From a virus: a stretch of 32,062 nt of DNA. The notes under the pieces are model-generated. The model saw only the letters and a list, made by a program, of their open reading frames with translations, was not told the DNA's origin and searched no databases. The DNA is taken from the IMG/VR virus record IMGVR_UViG_3300025168_000360, positions 1 to 32,062 of that record, one strand, 5' to 3'. How positions within the stretch are numbered: position 1 is the stretch's first letter; each line of letters starts with the position of its first letter. Both the position numbers and the translations under genes were made by a program. Below, piece after piece: positions 2,273-27,348 of this stretch.

Positions 2273-2489
2273 CTGGGCATCTCTTGGCATTTATCACCTC
2301 AATGAAGAGATGATTGATAGCGATTGCCGCCTAGATATGTTCTCATGGACAAATATATTACTGTTTAACTTCTTAGTCTCCACTTTCGGCTTACTTTATG
2401 TAATAATACTATTAATTTTAGAATTTTTACGCTTTTTAGACCGAAAAAAGAGATTTTATGGACAAAAAAAGAGCCAAAGAGATACTTGA
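2241..2489 (+). CDS. Small membrane protein
   Basis: The product has 82 residues and two hydrophobic stretches: an N-terminal one starting MNTIFLILLINWASLGI, and a longer one at about 37-65 rich in Leu, Ile, Phe and Val. The C-terminus is basic (DRKKRFYGQKK), so it should face the cytoplasm. TGAGG at 2229-2233 is a usable ribosome site. The gene overlaps both the upstream DUF3310 gene and the downstream large terminase by 32 bases, a tight arrangement that supports it being real. Its size and topology fit a holin-like or superinfection-exclusion-type protein, but no lysis gene is adjacent, so I make no functional call. Confidence 0.6.
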   Translation: MNTIFLILLINWASLGIYHLNEEMIDSDCRLDMFSWTNILLFNFLVSTFGLLYVIILLILEFLRFLDRKKRFYGQKKSQRDT

Positions 2490-3945
2490 AGAGCATCAAA
2501 GAAGGCAGAAACGGAAGGTACTTTTATCTAAAGCACCGACCGATCTGCTCTCTTACATAGAATATGTTAAGGATGACTATGTAGTTTCATGGCATCACAA
2601 GGCATTATGCGACCGTCTTAGTCGCTTAAAAGACGAAAAATCCAAGAAAATTATCATCACAATTGGCCCTCAGCGTGGAAAGTCAGAAATAGTTTCGCGT
2701 AAGTTTGGTTTATGGTGGCTTGGTAATTTCCCCAGTGCTAAAATAATCATGTCATCTTATTCTGCCGAACTATCAAACTCCTTTAACCGAGATGCACAAC
2801 ACACAGCATCATCCATATCGCACAAAGAAGTGTTCCCAGAATTAGAGACAGGTCACGAAAACAAAAATCTAACATTAAGAGGCAACGATCTTGAAACTGG
2901 AAAAGGTGGTCATTTATATTCCGTTGGTGTTGGGGGTACTACTACTGGTAAGTCAGCAGGCTCGATTGGTAAGAGTGCAGACCCAGGCCTTTTCATTATT
3001 GATGACCCTACGAAGGATTTGGCTGAAGCTTTCTCAGAAGTTAAACGACAATCAATAAAAGAGTGGTTCCAGTCGGTCGTATCAACTCGTATTCACGGTA
3101 CGTCCCATGTAATCGTAACTCACACACGTTGGCACTCGGATGACTTGGCTGGCTGGCTAATCGACAACAATCAAGATGGGGAGTGGGAGGTTCTTTCCTT
3201 CCCTGAACTTGGTCCTGACACAGATTACCCTAATCCCTATGACCCTCGCATCAAAGATGATGAACCTTTATGGCCATCTGAAAAAGGTAACTACAAAGAG
3301 CTAATGAAGATCAAGGCAGCAGTGGGGGATTACGTTTGGGCAGCGCTTTATCAGGGCAAGCCTAGAATTGCTGGGGGTAACATCGTAAAAGAGGACTGGA
3401 TACAGTACTATACTCAGCTACCATTTGAGCCTTCTAAGCTTCGCAGCTCACAGTTAATCCAAGGATGGGATTTAACATTTAAAAAGACCACGGATGGATC
3501 TTATGTTGTGGGTGCGACTTTTGCTCGTTACGAATCCCAGTTCTACCTTCTAGATTTCTATAGAAAGCGTGTAGGTATCGGCGATACAATGAAAGCTATT
3601 AAGCAAATGTCTGAAAGGTGGCCTAGGTGTCGTCAAATTCTCGTGGAAGAAAAAGCGAACGGCTCGGCTATTTTGGAGTTACTTAAAAAACAGGTTTCTG
3701 GGATGATTCCTGTACTACCCAACACATCAAAAGATGAAAGACTGGTTGCGGTCGCTCCGTTCTTTGAGGCTGGGAATGTTTATCTTCCTGATATGTCTGT
3801 ACACACAAAAGACATTGTGGAAGAGCTCACGGCGTTCCCTTCTGCTCCAAACGACGATATTGTGGATTGTTTTTCTATGATTCTCGATAGGTTCTCAGGA
3901 TTAAAAGGTAAACGACACTTAGAAGCCATGTCTCGTGCGTGGTAA
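2458..3945 (+). CDS. terL: Terminase large subunit
   Basis: The product has 495 residues, the normal length for this ATPase-nuclease that pumps DNA into the prohead through the portal. The ATPase half has a Walker A-like loop GPQRGKSE at residues 70-77 and a Walker B strand GLFIIDDP ending in the acidic pair D182-D183. The C-terminal nuclease half has the expected acidic positions: the first strand LIQGWDLTF, the ILVEEKANG strand, and NDDIVDCFSM near the end. The start overlaps the membrane-protein gene and has only a weak ribosome site (AAGAGA), which suggests translational coupling. The portal gene follows 42 bases later. Confidence 0.95.
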   Translation: MDKKRAKEILEEHQRRQKRKVLLSKAPTDLLSYIEYVKDDYVVSWHHKALCDRLSRLKDEKSKKIIITIGPQRGKSEIVSRKFGLWWLGNFPSAKIIMSSYSAELSNSFNRDAQHTASSISHKEVFPELETGHENKNLTLRGNDLETGKGGHLYSVGVGGTTTGKSAGSIGKSADPGLFIIDDPTKDLAEAFSEVKRQSIKEWFQSVVSTRIHGTSHVIVTHTRWHSDDLAGWLIDNNQDGEWEVLSFPELGPDTDYPNPYDPRIKDDEPLWPSEKGNYKELMKIKAAVGDYVWAALYQGKPRIAGGNIVKEDWIQYYTQLPFEPSKLRSSQLIQGWDLTFKKTTDGSYVVGATFARYESQFYLLDFYRKRVGIGDTMKAIKQMSERWPRCRQILVEEKANGSAILELLKKQVSGMIPVLPNTSKDERLVAVAPFFEAGNVYLPDMSVHTKDIVEELTAFPSAPNDDIVDCFSMILDRFSGLKGKRHLEAMSRAW

Positions 3946-3987
3946 TTTTACAACAAATGTATGACAAGTATGACAAAAGGAAAAACT

Positions 3988-5421
3988 ATGAAATCACTTA
4001 GTAGAAAACAGATTGATAACTACGAAAACGCTATGACTGGCCTTGGTATGGCTGGTACTGACAAGGCTGCCTCAACTACAGTTAAATGGAGGCCTCTAGG
4101 TTACGCGGAAACTGCAAGACTTTATGGGGGAGACGCAATCGCAAAGAAGATCGTCGACCTTATCCCAATGGACGGTATGAGAGAATGGATTCTCTACAAT
4201 ATGCCTTCCGAAGCTAGGGGCGCAGACAAGAAATTCAATAAAATCGTGATGAAGCTAGAAGAAGAGTTTGATCGCCTTGGATTTAAGAATAAACTTCGTG
4301 AAGGTTGGCGTTGCGGTAGATTATGGGGAGATTCATTTCTATATGTTTCGATAGATGACTCTTTAGAGATTTCTACGCCCGTAGACATGGAAGGCATAAG
4401 AAAAATTAATGCTATCCAGATACTTTCCACTCAAGATGTGTCCATTAGCTCAGAAGATATGGATAAAGATCTTTCAAGCCTGAATTATGGTAAGCCTCTG
4501 CTATTTACAGTTAGTGGTAACGAAGGGCAGATTATAAAAATCCACCACAGCCGAATTATCCGTATTGCTGGCGAGTTTCTACCTAAAGAAATGCTTGAAT
4601 CAAATAATTACAAAAATGATTCCGTACTTTCTAAGTGTGCAGCATCCATAAAAGGTTACGGTGCAGCAATCGCTAACATTCCTAACCTAGTTCTTGAATC
4701 CAACGCCCCTGTATTTAAGATGGAGGGTTTAGCAGAAGCCTTAGCCGAGGACGATGCAGGCCTTGTTCAATCACGACTTCGCCAGGTACAAAGACAGCGT
4801 TCTTCAATGCGTGCGGTTGCGCTTGATGTGCAAGATGACTTTATCTTCCCACCTAACTCACTTGGTGGCGTAAAAGACATCATAAACAAAGCAGAAGATC
4901 ACGTTGTTGGTGCTTCTGGTTATCCAAAGACTTTACTTATGGGTACATCGCCTTCAGCATCACTTGGAGCGCAATCTGGAGCATCAGAATTTAGAGATTA
5001 CTATGACATTGTCGGTGAGCATCAAGAAATGCTTATCAAGCATCCAATTGATTATGTAATAAAATTAATTTTTGCACAAAAAGATGTTACAATTCCTAAG
5101 CGACCAAAGGGTTTCACTTTTAAGTTTGCTACACTTTTAAAGCAATCTCTAAAAGAAAAAATTGAGACTAGAAAGTTGCAAGCAGACATTGATAGAATTT
5201 ATCTTGAAGGCGGCGTAGTTGACCCTGATGAGATAGCAGAAAACAGGTTAGGTGGTTCCGATTTTTCTTTTGATACGATCATAGATCACTCCAGGGAAAG
5301 AAAAAGACTTGAGACTACTACATCCGCATTTTCAGGCACGAAGTCGAACTTAGGTATTGAGCCTTCTAAGACTGGCGGTACTGCAAGTGGGGAATCTACA
5401 GTTCCAAGTGAGCGTACTTAA
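3988..5421 (+). CDS. Portal protein, DUF1073 family
   Basis: The product has 477 residues from ATG 3988, which has AAAAGG at 3975-3980, seven bases upstream. Two earlier in-frame ATGs (3961, 3970) lack a ribosome site. The sequence follows the DUF1073 portal pattern: an N-terminal segment with YGGDAIAKKIVDLIPMDG, a GWRCGRLWGDSFLY segment, a conserved KIHHSRIIRIAGEFLP segment and a helical C-terminal half with LLMGTSPSASLG. The dodecameric portal forms the DNA entry channel. This family carries an anti-CBASS Acb1-related name in some databases, but I see no paired catalytic HxT/HxS motifs. Position directly after the large terminase supports the portal role. Confidence 0.88.
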   Translation: MKSLSRKQIDNYENAMTGLGMAGTDKAASTTVKWRPLGYAETARLYGGDAIAKKIVDLIPMDGMREWILYNMPSEARGADKKFNKIVMKLEEEFDRLGFKNKLREGWRCGRLWGDSFLYVSIDDSLEISTPVDMEGIRKINAIQILSTQDVSISSEDMDKDLSSLNYGKPLLFTVSGNEGQIIKIHHSRIIRIAGEFLPKEMLESNNYKNDSVLSKCAASIKGYGAAIANIPNLVLESNAPVFKMEGLAEALAEDDAGLVQSRLRQVQRQRSSMRAVALDVQDDFIFPPNSLGGVKDIINKAEDHVVGASGYPKTLLMGTSPSASLGAQSGASEFRDYYDIVGEHQEMLIKHPIDYVIKLIFAQKDVTIPKRPKGFTFKFATLLKQSLKEKIETRKLQADIDRIYLEGGVVDPDEIAENRLGGSDFSFDTIIDHSRERKRLETTTSAFSGTKSNLGIEPSKTGGTASGESTVPSERT

Positions 5422-5435
5422 CTGATAATGTTGCG

Positions 5436-5466
5436 TAATGCCATATAGTGCTATAATATGGCATTA
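5436..5466 (+). promoter_or_regulatory. Extended -10 promoter inside an 11-bp perfect inverted repeat
   Basis: Arms TAATGCCATAT (5436-5446) and ATATGGCATTA (5456-5466) are perfect complements with a 9-base loop. GTGCTATAATA (5448-5458), identical to the element at 318, lies in the loop and second arm, so any protein binding the palindrome would cover the -10 box. No T run follows, which argues against a terminator. The next gene starts 25 bases later. Confidence 0.7.
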
Positions 5467-5490
5467 ACACTTTTACAAATGGAACAATGA

Positions 5491-6669
5491 ATGAAAAATA
5501 TAGATTATATTAATTTCGATTCAACTCCTACGACCGAAATGCACGATAATGGATACCTTTCTGTAGAGTCGCTTCTTACACGAACGGGAATCTTTACTTA
5601 TCGACAAATGGGGCCAGACGGAAGACTGGAAACCATTAGGCAACTTCGACTTGAAGAAGAAATTTTCTCTCCCGAAACTATGGCAACGCAAATGGGGCTA
5701 CCAGTAACGAATGATCATCCTGAAGACTTCGTAACAGTAGAATCCACTCCTAATCTTGTAGTCGGTATGACTTCAGATCGTCCTAAGCGAGTAGAAATGG
5801 ATGGCGACTCTGAAAAGTACGTAAAGCAGCTAGTTACGTTTACGGATGGGGAGGCAATAGACCTAATCCAATCGGGACGAAAGAAAGAACTATCTCTTGG
5901 CTACACATGCGAGCTGGAGAAAGCGGAGGACGGTGCAACCTACAACGGCCTAGCATACGACTACATCCAACGAAATATCAAGTACAACCACTTGTCGCTA
6001 GTAGACCGTGCGCGCGCTGGTGCGAAGTGCAGAGTGATGCTTGATGGTGCAGACATTCATAATGATGAGTTAGTCAATTGCGACGGCTTATCTTTTGATA
6101 AAACTTTTCAATTTTTGGAGAATGAATCAATGACTAAAGTTTTTGTCGCAAACGACAAAGAGCTTGAAGTTTCTGAGGAAGTTTTCGTTTTACTTGATGG
6201 CCACAAAGTTGAGCTAGAAAAGTCTAATGAAGAGAAATCAGAGCTTACTAAGCTAGTTGATTCTACCAAAGCAGAACTAGATTCGGTTAAGGCTGAATTA
6301 GAAGAAGCTACTAAGAACTTCGACGCAAAGTCTGAAGAACTTAATGCTAATTTCGACAGTGCTGTTAAGAGTAGAATCGAAGTGATTGAGAAGGCTAAGA
6401 AAGTATTGAAAGATACTGACCTTCTTACAATGGAGAGTTCAGAAATTAAAGAAGCTGCGATTAAAGCTGTTCAGAAAGACGCTGACCTAGAAGGCAAGTC
6501 TGAAGAGTACATCAATGCACGCTTTGATTTTGTAATGGACTCTTACAAAGAGCCTAAAAGCGAAGCTAACTTAAGCCAAGCTCTAGACTCAAACACAGTT
6601 AAAGTTGTTAAAGACGCTGCAACAGTAGCATGGGAAAAAGCCCAAAATAAATGGAAGGAAGTTAAGTAA
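5491..6669 (+). CDS. DUF2213 prohead protease fused to scaffold
   Basis: The product has 392 residues. The N-terminal ~200 residues match the DUF2213 capsid-maturation protease type: VTNDHP with H76, KELSLGY with S135, and HLSLVDRARAG starting at H167. H76 and S135 are the likely catalytic pair, by analogy with HK97-type prohead proteases. A linker at about 185-213 leads to a helical, charged C-terminal part (about 240-300 strongly coiled coil), typical of a scaffold. An in-frame internal start at 6130 probably makes the scaffold alone (separate entry). The ribosome site is weak (GGA at 5481). A three-codon mini-ORF (5479-5490) ends immediately before the ATG. The gene overlaps the cement gene by one base (TAATG). 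Confidence 0.87.
   Translation: MKNIDYINFDSTPTTEMHDNGYLSVESLLTRTGIFTYRQMGPDGRLETIRQLRLEEEIFSPETMATQMGLPVTNDHPEDFVTVESTPNLVVGMTSDRPKRVEMDGDSEKYVKQLVTFTDGEAIDLIQSGRKKELSLGYTCELEKAEDGATYNGLAYDYIQRNIKYNHLSLVDRARAGAKCRVMLDGADIHNDELVNCDGLSFDKTFQFLENESMTKVFVANDKELEVSEEVFVLLDGHKVELEKSNEEKSELTKLVDSTKAELDSVKAELEEATKNFDAKSEELNANFDSAVKSRIEVIEKAKKVLKDTDLLTMESSEIKEAAIKAVQKDADLEGKSEEYINARFDFVMDSYKEPKSEANLSQALDSNTVKVVKDAATVAWEKAQNKWKEVK
6130..6669 (+). CDS. Nested scaffold protein from an internal start (candidate)
   Basis: ATG 6130 is codon 214 of the protease gene, in frame, and is preceded by TTTTTGGAG with GGAG at 6117-6120 and a nine-base spacer. That is a better ribosome site than the one for the full-length gene. 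The product would be 179 residues: a short N-terminal beta-like segment, then a long charged coiled coil and a helical C-terminus ending WEKAQNKWKEVK. Nested, in-frame scaffold genes within protease genes are known in other phages, for example lambda C/Nu3. This would let the cell make much more scaffold than protease. The site is seen directly; the expression is inferred. Confidence 0.6.
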   Translation: MTKVFVANDKELEVSEEVFVLLDGHKVELEKSNEEKSELTKLVDSTKAELDSVKAELEEATKNFDAKSEELNANFDSAVKSRIEVIEKAKKVLKDTDLLTMESSEIKEAAIKAVQKDADLEGKSEEYINARFDFVMDSYKEPKSEANLSQALDSNTVKVVKDAATVAWEKAQNKWKEVK

Positions 6670-7184
6670 TGCAATTAGAATATAACGAAAAAATGGATGC
6701 GTTTTACAAAGGCCAACACATCGAGCCTTTCCAACCTCACCTTATTGATTCTGGTGTAGCACAAGGTGTAGTACCTTTCGGTTCTCCAGTTGAGTTAGTT
6801 TCTATCTCTGAAAACTACCTAGCTGAGCAAGTTCAAGTAGCTGCTACTGGCTTCCAAGGTGTCGCTGTTCTTGTAGACGGTGCTGAGCAAGATGCTTATG
6901 CAGTTGTTACTCGTACTTCTAACGCTCTTGATGGTGCTGAAGATACAATCGCTGAAGCTGTAGCTGGATTCAAAGACAAAGCTCCTCTAGCAATCATGAA
7001 AACTGGCCGTGTAGTTGTTGCTCTTGCTTCTGCTGCTGCTGTTGGTGAACAAGTTTACCCTGTTGTTGCAAACGGAAAGTTCTCTACAACTGATACTGAC
7101 ACATTAGGTGGAAACATCAAGTGTATCGTTCACAGAGTTGCTGATGCAAATGGTCTTGGTATCATCGAAATGTTCAGAGTATAA
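6669..7184 (+). CDS. Capsid cement/decoration protein (DUF2190-like)
   Basis: The product has 171 residues, is Ala/Val-rich and beta-like, and has no signal or membrane segment. The N-terminal segment with DSGVAQGVVPFGSPVELVS and the later AIMKTGRVVVALASA and GEQVYPVVANG fit the small structural cement proteins encoded between protease and major capsid protein in phages of this type. Such proteins trim and stabilise the capsid surface. The start codon shares its A with the TAA of the protease gene (TAATG), so translation is coupled. The family call rests on these segments and on gene order; it is less certain than for the capsid gene. Confidence 0.72.
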   Translation: MQLEYNEKMDAFYKGQHIEPFQPHLIDSGVAQGVVPFGSPVELVSISENYLAEQVQVAATGFQGVAVLVDGAEQDAYAVVTRTSNALDGAEDTIAEAVAGFKDKAPLAIMKTGRVVVALASAAAVGEQVYPVVANGKFSTTDTDTLGGNIKCIVHRVADANGLGIIEMFRV

Positions 7185-7210
7185 ACACACTAATTAATAA
7201 GGAAGTAAAA

Positions 7211-8122
7211 ATGACTTACAAGAATATCGACGCTGATGCTGGCGTATTTTTTGAGCACGAATTAGAAGCTGTAAAAAGCCGTGCATATGAAATTGAGTAC
7301 CCACAACTAATGGCTCGTACTGTATTCCCTGCTGCTGCACAACTTTCAGCTCCAGGTGCACAATCTGTAACTTACGAAATGTTTGATTTTGTAGGACAAG
7401 CAAAGATTCTACATAGTTACGCTGCGGACATCCCGATGGTAGAAGTTAAAGGTAACAGATATACTCGCCAAGTATATACTGAAGCTCTAGGTTTCAACTA
7501 CTCTATCGACGACATTGACGCTGCTAGAATGGCTGGCAAGCCTCTAAACGACATGAAAGCTAAGACTGTAAGACGTGGCCTTCTTAAATTAGAAGACACA
7601 ATTGCTTTCCATGGTGATTCTGCTACAGATATCCCATCTTTCTTAGAGAATCCAAACGTCAACACTATGACAATCGACGCTGAGTGGACTAAAGGTACTG
7701 CTACTGGTCAAGACATCATTGACGATCTTCTAGCGATGGAGCAATCAATCATTGAGAACTCTAACGGCGTTGAAGCTCCGAACACTCTAGTTCTTTGCCC
7801 AGAAACTTACGCTACACTAGCAATGACTATCCACACTGATGGTGTAGACAAAACTGTTCTTGCTCACTTCCTAGACAACTCTGCTTACATCAGTTCTGTA
7901 CTTTCTGTACCTAACTTTAAAGTTGGTGGACTTAAAGACGGCGACCGTTATGCAATGATGTATGACCGTTCTCCAGACAAGCTATGGTTAGAAGTTGTTA
8001 AAGACGTAACTTTCCTACCAGCTCAAGAAAAGGCACTTATGTTCCAAGTTCCAGCATACATGAAAACTGCTGGCGTTATCTGCCCTTTCCCTAAGTCTGT
8101 ATGTATTGTTAAGGGCGTATAA
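7211..8122 (+). CDS. Major capsid protein, DUF2184 family
   Basis: The product has 303 residues, expected to take the HK97 fold. Recognisable family segments are YPQLMARTVFPAAA, then VTYEMFDFVGQAKIL, a YTRQVYTEALGFNYSIDDI block and KLEDTIAFHGD in the middle, and ALMFQVPAYMKTAGV near the C-terminus. The ribosome site AAGGAAG (7199-7205) is five bases from the ATG, as expected for a very abundant protein. Codons are noticeably regular (many Gct, Cta and act choices), again fitting high expression. A strong UACG-loop hairpin follows the stop codon by about 22 bases and probably protects or ends this mRNA. Confidence 0.92.
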   Translation: MTYKNIDADAGVFFEHELEAVKSRAYEIEYPQLMARTVFPAAAQLSAPGAQSVTYEMFDFVGQAKILHSYAADIPMVEVKGNRYTRQVYTEALGFNYSIDDIDAARMAGKPLNDMKAKTVRRGLLKLEDTIAFHGDSATDIPSFLENPNVNTMTIDAEWTKGTATGQDIIDDLLAMEQSIIENSNGVEAPNTLVLCPETYATLAMTIHTDGVDKTVLAHFLDNSAYISSVLSVPNFKVGGLKDGDRYAMMYDRSPDKLWLEVVKDVTFLPAQEKALMFQVPAYMKTAGVICPFPKSVCIVKGV

Positions 8123-12887: not shown

Positions 12888-15056
12888 ATGGCTAAAGAAA
12901 CCTTTATGTCACTGACGGCAAAACACTTGCCGAAACTCGTGCCATTACTTAAGCAGGTAAAGAAGAACACTGCTGATTGGAGTAAAGAGGCTTTCAAGTC
13001 TGCTACTGCTTCTGACAAACTCACAAAGTCTATAGACAAGCAGTCTAAGGCCGTAAAGGAGTTAAACCAAGATCAGAAGCTAAAGATAGAGCTTGAACAG
13101 CGTAACAGAAGGGCGACATTAGCCAACGCTAAGGCCAACACAATTGCAGCTAAGTCCATCAAGGCGAGGTCAAGCCGCCTTGTTGAGCTTACTCAAAAAA
13201 CAAAGTCATATACAAACGCCATAAAAAAACTTAACCATCATTCATCTATCAATGATTGGAATGGTATTGCTGGCAAGACTGCTACTAAGACAACTCGCAA
13301 GAGACTAAACATGTCAGCAGCAGTGGGGAATAAGAGGCGTACAAAGTCTACTTTCACGGATGCCCCTAGACCATCTACTATAGAAGATCTAGAGCTTCCA
13401 CCTCCAGCAAAGATAGCTAAGACTATAGGACTATTCCAAAGACTAGTAAGAGTTCAAAGAAGAGTCGGTAACGGCTTTCGTTCGTTTGGTAGAATAATAA
13501 GAAAGACGACTACATTTGTCTTTCGTCTCGCTAGAGCAACAGCTAAAGCCTTACTACCTCTTGATGCTTTCAGTGGCGCAATCTTAAAGATGAAATTATA
13601 CGGCTCAATGATGAGTGGTGTAGGTAAAGGTTTTGGCCTTTTAAATGACTCTATGAACTTAGCTGGTACACGTCAGCAAATGCAACAGTTCTTCAAGTTG
13701 CAGCTTCGTGGTGATGGTGCAGGAGCCGATCAGCTTCTAGGTGACATTACTAGTTTCTCATCTAAATCACCGTTTACAATAACTCAGTCTCGTGGCTTCT
13801 ACGGTAAGCTACTACAGGTTATGAACGGTTCGGGAATGGCTCTTGGAACGAAAAGTGACAGGTTCGGTAATCTTACTGAATTAGTGAGAATGTTTGGTGA
13901 TGCCGCAGGTGGCGACACGACAAGGATGTCTAGAATCGTTGTGACTATGTCTCAGATGTTATCTCGTGGTAAAGGTAACGAACTTGACTTCAGAGAATTA
14001 GCTAACTCCTTAGTTGATCTTAAGCCAATACTTAGAAAGATTATGGGCTTAGGTAAAGGTCAGGAATTTGAAGCTTCTAAAGTAGATCGTGCAATGATGC
14101 TTCAAGCGTTTAAAATGTATACGACAGGCGATGGACCTATGGCAGGTTCCATGGCGGCATCAATGAACACGTGGCCTGGTATTCTTTCTAACCTGAAAGA
14201 TATGATTATCACCTTCAAGGAAGAAGTTGGTAGACCTATGGTAGCTACGTTTGGACCTATACTTAGAAGTTTTAGAGATGCTTTCAATACACCTGAGATG
14301 AAAAAATCCTTCCGCTTGTTTGGTAGATGGATGGCTCAAACTGGTCTTACATTTACTCGTGTCATCAAGAGTCTTTTCGGCGGCGGTAAATTTGGAGGAT
14401 TCCTTCCAGGTCTAGGTAAGTCGATTAACATGATCGCACTTTATTTTGAAGATTTCTTGAAACTTATTAGAGGGCAAGATTCTGCTATTGGTAAGGCTAC
14501 AGGCTTTGGAGAAACTTGGAAAAGTGTCCTTAAGTTCTTTAACACAGCATGGGTATGGATGCAGAAGCTTGTCACTGTAGGCCCATGGAAGATGTTCACA
14601 GATATGATGAAAGGTATCATTAAAGATTTTTGGGAAAAGGGTAAAGAGTTTGTTAAGACTTTATTCTTCGATATAAGTACTGGTTTATTTGGTATCAGAG
14701 AGCCAATGCCCGATGCTGAGGGAATGAAAAAATTCGAGAAGATGACCCCTACGCAGCTTATGGACTACATGCACCGTGAGGATATGCAAGAAAACCATGA
14801 GCTTGGCAACAAGCTTCAAGAAATCTACAACAGAAAAACTAATGACGGCATGGGCTTCTTAGGTCAAGGTTTTAATAATTACGCTTCGATGTCTGGCATG
14901 GGTAGCTACTCACTTGCAGGTGGATATAGCTTAGGTGGTGGTGGTATGCAAATACAGCAAAACAACCACATCTATACCAACGAGGCAGCAGGCTCAATTA
15001 ATGATAGACTAGTATCTCAATTAGCTAGTGTTGAAGCTTATGAAGGGAGTTTCTAA
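12888..15056 (+). CDS. Tape measure protein
   Basis: The product has 722 residues. The N-terminal ~150 are strongly basic and helical (many Lys/Ser/Thr). The centre, about residues 245-475, matches the tape measure domain: ITSFSSKSPFTITQSRGFYG, LTELVRMFGDAAGG, ELDFRELANSL and GILSNLKDMIITFKEEVGRP. The C-terminal part has Gly/Met-rich loops (SLAGGYSLGGGG). At about 0.15 nm per residue the tail would be close to 110 nm. The protein spans the tube and is ejected with the DNA. The stop codon overlaps the next start (TAATG). Confidence 0.9.
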   Translation: MAKETFMSLTAKHLPKLVPLLKQVKKNTADWSKEAFKSATASDKLTKSIDKQSKAVKELNQDQKLKIELEQRNRRATLANAKANTIAAKSIKARSSRLVELTQKTKSYTNAIKKLNHHSSINDWNGIAGKTATKTTRKRLNMSAAVGNKRRTKSTFTDAPRPSTIEDLELPPPAKIAKTIGLFQRLVRVQRRVGNGFRSFGRIIRKTTTFVFRLARATAKALLPLDAFSGAILKMKLYGSMMSGVGKGFGLLNDSMNLAGTRQQMQQFFKLQLRGDGAGADQLLGDITSFSSKSPFTITQSRGFYGKLLQVMNGSGMALGTKSDRFGNLTELVRMFGDAAGGDTTRMSRIVVTMSQMLSRGKGNELDFRELANSLVDLKPILRKIMGLGKGQEFEASKVDRAMMLQAFKMYTTGDGPMAGSMAASMNTWPGILSNLKDMIITFKEEVGRPMVATFGPILRSFRDAFNTPEMKKSFRLFGRWMAQTGLTFTRVIKSLFGGGKFGGFLPGLGKSINMIALYFEDFLKLIRGQDSAIGKATGFGETWKSVLKFFNTAWVWMQKLVTVGPWKMFTDMMKGIIKDFWEKGKEFVKTLFFDISTGLFGIREPMPDAEGMKKFEKMTPTQLMDYMHREDMQENHELGNKLQEIYNRKTNDGMGFLGQGFNNYASMSGMGSYSLAGGYSLGGGGMQIQQNNHIYTNEAAGSINDRLVSQLASVEAYEGSF

Positions 15057-16173: not shown

Positions 16174-17369
16174 GTTATCTTAACAGAGAAATAACGGGTG
16201 CAGATACTAATATTGCAGCTCAAAAAGCTAGAGATATCGCTAATCGAAACTCTATAACTGGCGTCCCTAAATATCAAAGAGCTTATAGACTTGAAGTAGG
16301 TTCACCTAAAATTCAAGAGGTTTATAAGTCTGCTGACGAGATGTACCCTGATCAGGCTGACCCTGAAAGGCGTAAATATATTCCACCAACAGAAGGTGGC
16401 GTAATAGATATCACAGATAAATTTGCTATAACTCCTGTAGACACCTCTATATCGGGTGCTCCCTACTGGCTTAACGGTAAGGCTCTTTGGCAAGATCACG
16501 AACTTGGTTTTAGAATACAGTTTGAAATAATGCAAAATGATAAGCCATCGAACAACTTTAATAAGATCAAAGTTTACAATCCACCTGAAGAATTTGTTAC
16601 AGCCTGCAACCAGGACGCTGCTACAGTTAAGCTTTTTTGTGGTTATGTGACTGAGCGTAAAATAGGTCAACTTCTTATAGGTAGTATTTCGTCTACAAAA
16701 TACGAATCGCAAGGGCCTGACCAATGCCTTACAATTTTTGTGGGGGATTTAGCTGGCACATTTGCGACTAGGCATATAAATAGAATTTTCTCAGCAAACT
16801 ATTCTTATGCTAACGTAGTAGAACACTTAGCTGATTACATTGTGAGAAATGATATAACTTTGCAAGGTGCTGATATACTATTCGATATCAATACAAAGCT
16901 TGGTAAAAACCTTACCATTAGTGGCGATGCTTATGAAAACCTTAAAAACATATGTAGATCGTACGGCTTTTCCGTATTTAAGTCTGCTGGTATGCTGAAG
17001 ATAAGACCTGCTACAATACTTTCAAGTTTTGAGACAGCGCAACAAGTAAAGATCAGTGACCAAAGTGGACTTATTGGAAAGCCTGAGTTTATCACTAAGA
17101 AAAAGGGTGGTGACGGACAGGGTGAGTCAGTTAAAACTATAAGATTTAAATGTCTTTTAGATACTGAAATACAGATAAGGACACGAATATTCTTAAGTTC
17201 TAAAGCATTTCCTACAGATATTACTTGTGTTGTGACATCTCAAAAAATTGAGGGTGATTCAATGGGTGGAGCTTGGTACAATATAATCACAGCAGATATC
17301 GTTCCAGCAGTAGGTCCATCAGATGTGATATTTCCTAATAGTAATAATACAGCAGGAGTTACTTCTTAA
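16170..17369 (+). CDS. Baseplate hub protein (gp27/gp44-like)
   Basis: The product has 399 residues. It lies between the plug and the spike, where the hub is encoded in simple myoviruses. The mid part (WQDHELGFRIQFEIMQNDK, then FNKIKVYNPP and VKLFCGYV) and the C-terminal half (LTISGDAYENLKNICRSYGF, then SAGMLKIRP) resemble phage hub proteins with tandem beta domains. Its trimer would hold the spike. It overlaps the upstream plug by 4 bases and the spike gene by one (TAATG). No lysozyme domain is present. Confidence 0.75.
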   Translation: MSYLNREITGADTNIAAQKARDIANRNSITGVPKYQRAYRLEVGSPKIQEVYKSADEMYPDQADPERRKYIPPTEGGVIDITDKFAITPVDTSISGAPYWLNGKALWQDHELGFRIQFEIMQNDKPSNNFNKIKVYNPPEEFVTACNQDAATVKLFCGYVTERKIGQLLIGSISSTKYESQGPDQCLTIFVGDLAGTFATRHINRIFSANYSYANVVEHLADYIVRNDITLQGADILFDINTKLGKNLTISGDAYENLKNICRSYGFSVFKSAGMLKIRPATILSSFETAQQVKISDQSGLIGKPEFITKKKGGDGQGESVKTIRFKCLLDTEIQIRTRIFLSSKAFPTDITCVVTSQKIEGDSMGGAWYNIITADIVPAVGPSDVIFPNSNNTAGVTS

Positions 17370-18082
17370 TGTCAGATTATGTATCAGAGTTAGACTTAAT
17401 TGAGTTAGCAGTAAGAAAAAACCTGTTAGATGTAAACACGGTCGTTCCAGCCTACGTGAATAGTTACAACAGCACAAAGCAGCAAGCTAATGTCACTGTT
17501 TCCATTGCTAGGGGCGTGGGGAATATGGTGTTTGACCCTATCAAGTTAGATGGTGTTAAGGTTGCTTTCCCTCGTGTTGGTAACTCAGGTTTTTCCTACA
17601 AAATTAAAAAGGGCGACCATGTACTTCTAGGTTTCTGTCAAAGAGATCTACGTAAGTTCAATCGTGCAGGTAGAGGCTACGGTCCTGAGTCTAACGACTT
17701 GTTTCCTATAAACAGTGCCATCATACTTGGTGGCTATGCTCCCGATGCTGACATGTTCTTCCAGCAAAACAATGCTACGGAAGTTGTGGGGGATAAAATA
17801 TTTATTGGTAAGCCCAGCGAGACTGGGCCAACTCTTAGCCCTCAAATTATAGCTACTGGGGTTCCAACACCTGCTACTGGACCTTCTAGCGCAAAGCAGT
17901 ACGGACCTTTAAATTTAGACTTGGTTTCTCTTTTGGTTGCACTAGTTGAAAATTTAATTGTTGCTGGATACGGCAATGATACTACACCAGCTTCAGCAAT
18001 GATAGGCGGTTTAGATGCGGTTACTAAAGGAAACCTCGAAAAAATTGCAGTAGCACTTAAAAAACTAAAAGTAGGAGGATAG
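17369..18082 (+). CDS. Baseplate spike, Gp138 N-terminal type
   Basis: The product has 237 residues. Residues ~20-125 have the features of the Gp138 N-terminal OB-like domain of phage phi92 and relatives: a V-P-A-Y-V segment, TVSIARGVG, VKVAFPRVGNSGF, KKGDHVLLGFCQRDL and the closing SAIILGGYAPDAD. The remaining ~110 residues contain Gly/Thr/Pro-rich turns and then helix (LVSLLVALVENLIVAG). The spike is a membrane-piercing needle tip; it is short, so any enzymatic or PAAR tip is absent or separate. Start is coupled to the hub gene. Confidence 0.8.
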   Translation: MSDYVSELDLIELAVRKNLLDVNTVVPAYVNSYNSTKQQANVTVSIARGVGNMVFDPIKLDGVKVAFPRVGNSGFSYKIKKGDHVLLGFCQRDLRKFNRAGRGYGPESNDLFPINSAIILGGYAPDADMFFQQNNATEVVGDKIFIGKPSETGPTLSPQIIATGVPTPATGPSSAKQYGPLNLDLVSLLVALVENLIVAGYGNDTTPASAMIGGLDAVTKGNLEKIAVALKKLKVGG

Positions 18083-26543: not shown

Positions 26544-26550
26544 GGTTTTG

Positions 26551-27348
26551 ATGAAAACTTTTAACATAGACGATTGCTGCGACGAGAATAGTGGTGGCGG
26601 TAATGGTGAGCAAGGTCCACAAGGTCCTCAAGGTCCTCAAGGTCCACAAGGTCCTCAAGGTGAGCAAGGTGAGCAAGGCGATACAGGCGCACAAGGCCCA
26701 CAAGGTGAGCCTGGTAGCGGTTCTGGTGGTGGTGGCAATATATTCGTTGTTCCCGAAGAGACAAGCGCAACTATTCCTGAAAACATAGAGAATATTAATT
26801 CTGGGCTATTCCACTTAGATGGGGAATTGGTTGTTGATGGTAAGTGGGTTCTTTTAGGTGAAACTACAAATAATGGAATAGAAGAGTTTGGCTCTGGCGG
26901 TAATTTTCATACGCATACCGAACTAAAAGCTTTAGGTAGCTTTGGGATGGCTTACCAAGGAGATGTTTATAGACAAGTTATTAATCATAGGCTTGGTTAT
27001 TTTCCAATATTAAAGTTTATTGACCCAAGTGGTGTAGAGCTTGACCCCAATGTAAGACACTTAAATACAAATAACATTGTTTTAGAGTCAAATATTCCAT
27101 TGGTAGGAACGGTATATGCTCTTCATGAGCCGCATAGCGATACTGTTTCGTTGTTTGGAGACATCGCCTTAAGTAATATTAATGGGGTGTTTACACAGTT
27201 AATAACTCATAACGCTAAAACTTTTCCAATATTTAAGTTTCTAGGTGACGATGGTACAGAGTTAGCCTTTAAGGTGACTCACATTAGCAATAGAGTAGCT
27301 AAGATAGAATCTAACATTTTAGTCTCTGGGAAAATTTATATGTTATAA
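26551..27348 (+). CDS. Collagen-like tail fibre protein
   Basis: The product has 265 residues from ATG 26551, with GAGG at 26542-26545 five bases upstream (a TTG three bases earlier is less likely). Residues 19 to ~57 are thirteen Gly-X-Y triplets, mostly GPQ/GEQ, giving a collagen-like triple helix. A Gly/Ser linker follows, and two copies of a ~55-residue module (RQVINHRLGYFPILKF and TQLITHNAKTFPIFKFLG) end the protein. A related module ends the next gene. The N-terminus has a Cys-Cys pair (DDCCDE). Such proteins are usually trimeric fibres. The last codons overlap the next promoter. Confidence 0.78.
   Translation: MKTFNIDDCCDENSGGGNGEQGPQGPQGPQGPQGPQGEQGEQGDTGAQGPQGEPGSGSGGGGNIFVVPEETSATIPENIENINSGLFHLDGELVVDGKWVLLGETTNNGIEEFGSGGNFHTHTELKALGSFGMAYQGDVYRQVINHRLGYFPILKFIDPSGVELDPNVRHLNTNNIVLESNIPLVGTVYALHEPHSDTVSLFGDIALSNINGVFTQLITHNAKTFPIFKFLGDDGTELAFKVTHISNRVAKIESNILVSGKIYML
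26605..26713 (+). repeat. Nine-base tandem repeat encoding Gly-X-Y
   Basis: Twelve or so near-identical copies of a nine-base unit (GGTCCTCAA, GGTCCACAA and variants) encode the GPQ/GEQ triplets. Such runs slip during replication, so copy number may vary between related phages. Several spurious overlapping reading frames come from this repeat. Confidence 0.85.

Follow-up and report, generated by a model that had tools for sequence, protein, structure and literature searches.

The DUF2213 gene and its probable internal start

The virus record IMGVR_UViG_3300025168_000360 (G000; its whole stretch of 32,062 bases is called the window here) carries a prohead protease-scaffold gene of the DUF2213 family with a probable second gene nested in its 3' part. 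The gene is located between the portal and capsid genes, in the order portal, fusion, cement, capsid. Its 392-amino-acid product matches Pfam DUF2213 (E 2.7e-38, 132 bits against a cut-off of 22), and PHROG 530 (head maturation protease) matches its residues 7-389 (E 1.4e-78). The features at the locus are as follows.

5491..6669, + strand: DUF2213 prohead protease-scaffold fusion, full length, 392 amino acids (Pfam DUF2213, PHROG 530)
5542..6036, + strand: protease (DUF2213) domain, residues 18-182 (Pfam)
6016..6129, + strand: linker, residues 176-213, low-confidence or disordered in the structural model and unalignable in relatives
6043..6255, + strand: block of near-complete codon identity with the closest relative, L003, codons 185-255, 51 of 55 conserved degenerate residues (93%)
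6095..6130, + strand: predicted RNA stem-loop pairing the internal Shine-Dalgarno sequence (SD), inner hairpin 6105-6121, also predicted in L003
6112..6120, + strand: SD of the internal start, TTTTTGGAG, GGAG core 6117-6120
6130..6669, + strand: putative nested scaffold gene, ATG 6130, 179 amino acids (MTKVFVANDK...), stop shared with the full gene

The SD TTTTTGGAG is followed by a 9-nucleotide spacer, AATGAATCA, and by an ATG at 6130-6132 that forms codon 214, in frame with the ATG at 5491. Direct reading of the sequence thus bears out the arrangement described in an earlier sequence-only reading, which had also ranked this site above that of the full-length gene; the duplex energies agree (-6.4 kcal/mol for the internal start versus -3.3 for the start at 5491). 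Because the median over the window's 34 gene starts is -6.1 kcal/mol, the internal SD is typical of a gene start, and its significance derives from its position and its conservation.

Domain anatomy

An AlphaFold2 model of the fusion (18-sequence alignment, mean predicted local distance difference test score, pLDDT, of 73) is confident up to about residue 175 and falls below a pLDDT of 50 over residues 176-224. The scaffold fold in the model consists of strands at 215-219 and 223-227 and then a helix at 229-302, and Met214 is the residue immediately preceding it. The sequence-only reading had placed the ATG where the protease ends and the scaffold begins. The scaffold side of this placement stands, to within one codon, but the protease domain ends about 35 residues earlier, near residue 175-182. 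Since the Pfam domain stops there and the modelled fold starts at 215, the internal ATG is predicted to end a linker of about 35 residues, one codon before the scaffold fold, and does not lie directly at the protease edge. PHROG 36941 (162 amino acids) matches window residues 214-368 beginning at its own position 2, and the PHROG model begins exactly at Met209 of phage TLS, the equivalent internal start. A PDB fold search with the AlphaFold2 model returned nothing significant. Residues H76, S135, and H167 of the DUF2213 domain are invariant across 18 relatives; this invariance is compatible with proteolytic activity, and the three may have a catalytic role.

Conservation across DUF2213 relatives

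The comparison covered the protease-scaffold junction in 47 DUF2213 genes, most of which share 25-65% identity with the window gene; near-duplicates were removed, and relatedness is only partly accounted for. The set combines IMG/VR contigs with named phages including TLS, Rtp, Pam3, B054, LBR48, PaGU11, psageB2, S-CBS4, Silvergun, AP22, and BcepNY3. The linkers are unalignable, and a start codon stands at the beginning of the scaffold in all 47 genes (ATG; TTG in L012), often directly followed by the motif K-[IVL]-x-[LVF]-D, from which the junction starts of L012, L018, L020, L025, and phiEt88 were assigned by eye. An SD of -5 kcal/mol or better precedes the junction start in 43 of the 47, many of them of the full AAGGAGG type. 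Retention of the SD and ATG in relatives that keep the fusion had been proposed as a check on the nested gene, and the result favors it, also in L003, which has TTATTGGAGAAAGAATCAATG at the internal start with GGAG retained.

An unsupervised count, which takes the best in-frame ATG in equal 60-codon windows of the same genes, likewise finds an SD-led in-frame ATG at the junction in 43/47. The SD threshold is reached in 91% of junction windows versus 13% of protease and 9% of scaffold windows (p 5e-9 and 3e-9), and the median SD energy is -6.5 at junction ATGs versus -1.8 at 216 other in-frame ATGs. Protein-preserving codon shuffles, combined across 36 genes, yield p 5e-5, in a test that is conservative because Glu, Lys, and Gly codons themselves provide much of the SD.

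The family is large: at least 1,741 of 50,697 phage records contain DUF2213 relatives (tblastn E <= 1e-3). A peptide-pattern scan of genome contigs gave one locus only, the pattern being too narrow. Neither separate scaffold genes nor split relatives were found. Two candidates for split relatives, L089 and L092, are Drexlerviridae-like contigs from IMG/VR in which tandem duplications scramble the head-gene region; both were rejected as repeat-riddled and apparently misassembled. Extra annotations in Jk06 and N5822 were likewise rejected as nested scaffolds.

Codon usage and module exchange

With the window's cement and capsid genes and two of its tail genes as the training set, codon adaptation rises from 0.48 in the protease half of the window gene to 0.70 in the scaffold half, which in this respect resembles the tail genes. 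When 32 genes of the family were each compared with their own phage's capsid gene, stratified by amino acid, the scaffold half was nearer to capsid codon usage in 27, significantly so in 21, and significantly reversed in none. The window's own shift is 0.29, versus -0.09 to 0.22 in 12 other long genes split at an equal fraction. Because two of these 12 controls (portal and 27381) are nominally significant, the family-wide shift is a stronger result than the window's own value.

In the Vibrio phages K437b and 95E33-2 (L068, L073), the scaffold DNA is 96% identical and the protease DNA 60%, with the identity starting 28 nucleotides before the internal ATG, SD included. This is a recombination boundary at which different proteases are joined to the same scaffold-cement module. 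The scaffold has moved along with the ribosome site that belongs to it, in the manner of an independent gene.

Comparison with the closest relative

No relative closer than L003 (65% amino acid identity) was found in IMG/VR, save an identical fragment, L002. At conserved degenerate residues, the window and L003 use identical codons in 43 of 123 cases (35%) over residues 1-184, in 25 of 27 over 185-213, in 26 of 28 over 214-255, and in 37 of 69 (54%) over 256-392. The longest run of identical codons is 25, versus at most 11 in nine other shared genes. This block is not accounted for by recent exchange of the stretch as a whole, because residues 221-260 differ from L003 at about 40% of positions and the conserved ones nonetheless retain their codons. 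Residues 185-220 are nearly identical throughout, and exchange is possible there, in a comparison of only two sequences. No block of this strength is seen in the TLS-like or Pam3-like sets, where the SD alone is kept, and no copy of it occurs elsewhere in the window among the 20 largest repeat families listed.

Folding predictions for both phages place the SD in a stem. In the window prediction the SD has a probability of 0.04 of being unpaired; L003 is predicted to adopt the same fold, and both stem-loops exceed synonymous shuffles in stability (2.5-5% level). Relatives are generally without such pairing (median probability of being unpaired 0.5), so coupling to upstream translation is a lead for the window and L003 only. 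In these two, the stem-loop at 6095-6130, within the codon-constrained block of about 210 nucleotides, might keep the SD inaccessible until unfolded by a ribosome that is translating the protease part, which would couple free scaffold to fusion synthesis; this model, drawn from the folding predictions, is tentative. A three-codon open reading frame, ATGAATCAATGA (6122-6133), that ends on the ATG was rejected as a coupling device, since L003 has AAAGAATCAATG and the frame is not conserved. An Rfam search of 5300-7400 gave no match.

A probable nested scaffold gene and its alternatives

Gene 5491-6669 is best read as encoding two 3'-coterminal proteins in one frame. Initiation at ATG 5491 would give the 392-amino-acid fusion of a DUF2213 (prohead-protease) domain and a C-terminal helical scaffold, and initiation at ATG 6130, from its own SD, the 179-amino-acid scaffold alone. 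By analogy with lambda, Mu, and herpesviruses, free scaffold in excess would drive capsid assembly together with the major capsid protein, and the rarer fusion would co-assemble via the common scaffold domain, carrying into the procapsid a protease that would later remove the scaffold. The separate scaffold proposed in the sequence-only reading gains support from the conservation and from the codon-usage shift at the junction; we infer that ribosomes use the start at 6130, that the short protein is produced, and that free scaffold is in excess. We put the probability at roughly 0.88 that the scaffold is a nested gene with initiation of its own and that its product outnumbers the protease.

Several observations weigh against this interpretation. 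The strength of the internal site is ordinary and, within the window alone, only weakly unusual: the site by itself is unconvincing because 9 of 187 internal in-frame ATGs of window genes (about 5% per ATG) have SDs at least as strong. The junction SD is weak in four of the 47 genes (L025, -3.2; phiEt88, -4.0; RS51pmB, -4.0; PVN02, -1.9), and 5 of the 32 genes in the family codon test show no codon shift. The predicted pairing of the SD in the window and L003 could lower initiation.

That 5% rate raises the question of whether the SD-like stretch is a product of chance, standing before a Met codon retained for protein reasons. GGAG is readily spelled by Glu/Lys/Gly-rich linkers, and the codon shuffle is not significant for some single genes (p 0.33 for L003). 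Its recurrence at the same position in 43/47 genes, whose linkers are unalignable, and the combined shuffle p of 5e-5 make chance highly improbable, and codon usage and module exchange argue against it independently. If instead only the fusion were made and no internal start used, free scaffold could arise from proteolytic cleavage in the linker, which is predicted to be disordered; scaffolds are cut by prohead proteases in related systems, and in herpesviruses the fusion also undergoes cleavage between its protease and scaffold parts (PMC4498786). Cleavage needs no SD, start codon, or codon-usage shift, yet all three are kept family-wide, making this account very unlikely on its own. Cleavage and internal initiation may coexist, but cleavage leaves the ribosome sites unexplained.

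The conserved block might also be mainly a promoter or another DNA or RNA element, producing a separate scaffold-cement-capsid transcript like that of herpesvirus UL26.5. The block reaches about 85 nucleotides upstream of the ATG, beyond what an SD needs, and contains a weak sigma70-like pair, TTGATA-17-GAGAAT, at 6095-6123. Promoter-like matches on both strands are nevertheless near chance (6 found versus 3.2 expected), the clear TGYTATAAT element, also present in L003, sits upstream of the full gene at 5448-5459, and the TLS-like and Pam3-like sets keep no long block beside their SD. As the principal explanation a promoter is unlikely, although one could operate alongside internal initiation.

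Relation to known systems

The strategy of a protease with a nested scaffold is already known (lambda C/Nu3, Mu I/Z, herpesvirus UL26/UL26.5). In lambda, the protease C contains the nested, 3'-coterminal scaffold Nu3, an arrangement like that of the window gene, but C belongs to a different, S49-type protease family. No S49-type (ClpP-like, lambda C family) domain was found when the window protein was scanned against Pfam with E values up to 10. The lambda parallel drawn in the sequence-only reading is apt as a strategy and does not extend to the protease, which in lambda is of another family as far as known; Mu I/Z and BcepNY3 are the closest precedents. Mu has an in-frame scaffold start inside its protease gene, and the PaMx73 protease-scaffold has a similar site at Val177, with the SD ACGAGGA and a 9-nucleotide spacer (PMC4378225). 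Unlike the DUF2213 protein of the window, the Mu I/Z and PaMx73 proteases belong to PF10123, which is absent from the window protein's Pfam matches up to E 10. Kinship with the PF10123 family was rejected (0 of 5 records holding DUF2213 relatives, and no match to the window protein).

Within the DUF2213 family, the Burkholderia phage BcepNY3 carries a prohead protease and scaffold protein, gene13 and gene13' (DUF2213 match E 8e-52). Its record annotates gene13' as an in-frame nested "scaffold protein" sharing its stop with gene13 and starting at residue 199 (TGGAGATAACGCTATG), and the present analysis arrived at the identical junction start. BcepNY3 differs from the window gene in being very divergent and in having a longer scaffold. 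The protease and scaffold genes of herpesviruses, UL26 and UL26.5, overlap in frame with identical 3' ends (PMC4498786). This system differs in belonging to a eukaryotic virus and in making the short form from its own nested promoter and transcript.

Pseudomonas phage Pa193 gp24 (PDB 9b40) is a homologue according to a profile match across the protease part (E 1.4e-16). A cryo-electron microscopy preprint shows residues 286-326 of gp24 bound inside the capsid vertices of mature virions and, from these residues, regards gp24 as a putative scaffold. It makes no mention of a protease or of an internal start; at 478 amino acids gp24 corresponds to the whole fusion, and its DUF2213 protease domain was apparently overlooked. 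In the relative PaGU11, residue 195 is encoded by an SD-led ATG. Pa193 gp24 may accordingly be a fusion of protease and scaffold that has a scaffold gene nested within it.

No description of a nested scaffold start for DUF2213 genes was found in the literature searched, nor any experimental proof for that of BcepNY3. Besides BcepNY3, the other annotated DUF2213 records examined carry no nested scaffold, and nearly all annotate a single protein. The new part appears to be the family-wide evidence for a DUF2213 nested scaffold. If the start is used, many phage annotations are without their scaffold protein, and the DUF2213 family keeps the protease-with-nested-scaffold plan of lambda, Mu, and herpesviruses.

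Other features of the window

The head-tail gene order of the window is myovirus-like. The genes around the fusion are as follows.

2458-3945: terminase
3961-5421: portal
6669-7184: cement protein
7211-8122: major capsid protein, with tail genes next

An extended -10 promoter-like element, GTGCTATAATA(T/G), lies at 5448-5459, just 5' of the DUF2213 gene, and recurs at 318-329, upstream of the first gene (413). Because L003 carries GTGTTATAATAT at the equivalent place before its own DUF2213 gene, a promoter for the head module at 5448-5459 is plausible.

Very strong SDs (-10.0 and -10.3 kcal/mol) precede two other internal in-frame ATGs, at 17525 (gene 17369-18082) and 14946 (gene 12888-15056), which are candidate alternative starts. 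A predicted tail protein (26548-27348) contains a collagen-like Gly-X-Y repeat (GGTCCTCAA, 9-nucleotide units) at 26605-26715.
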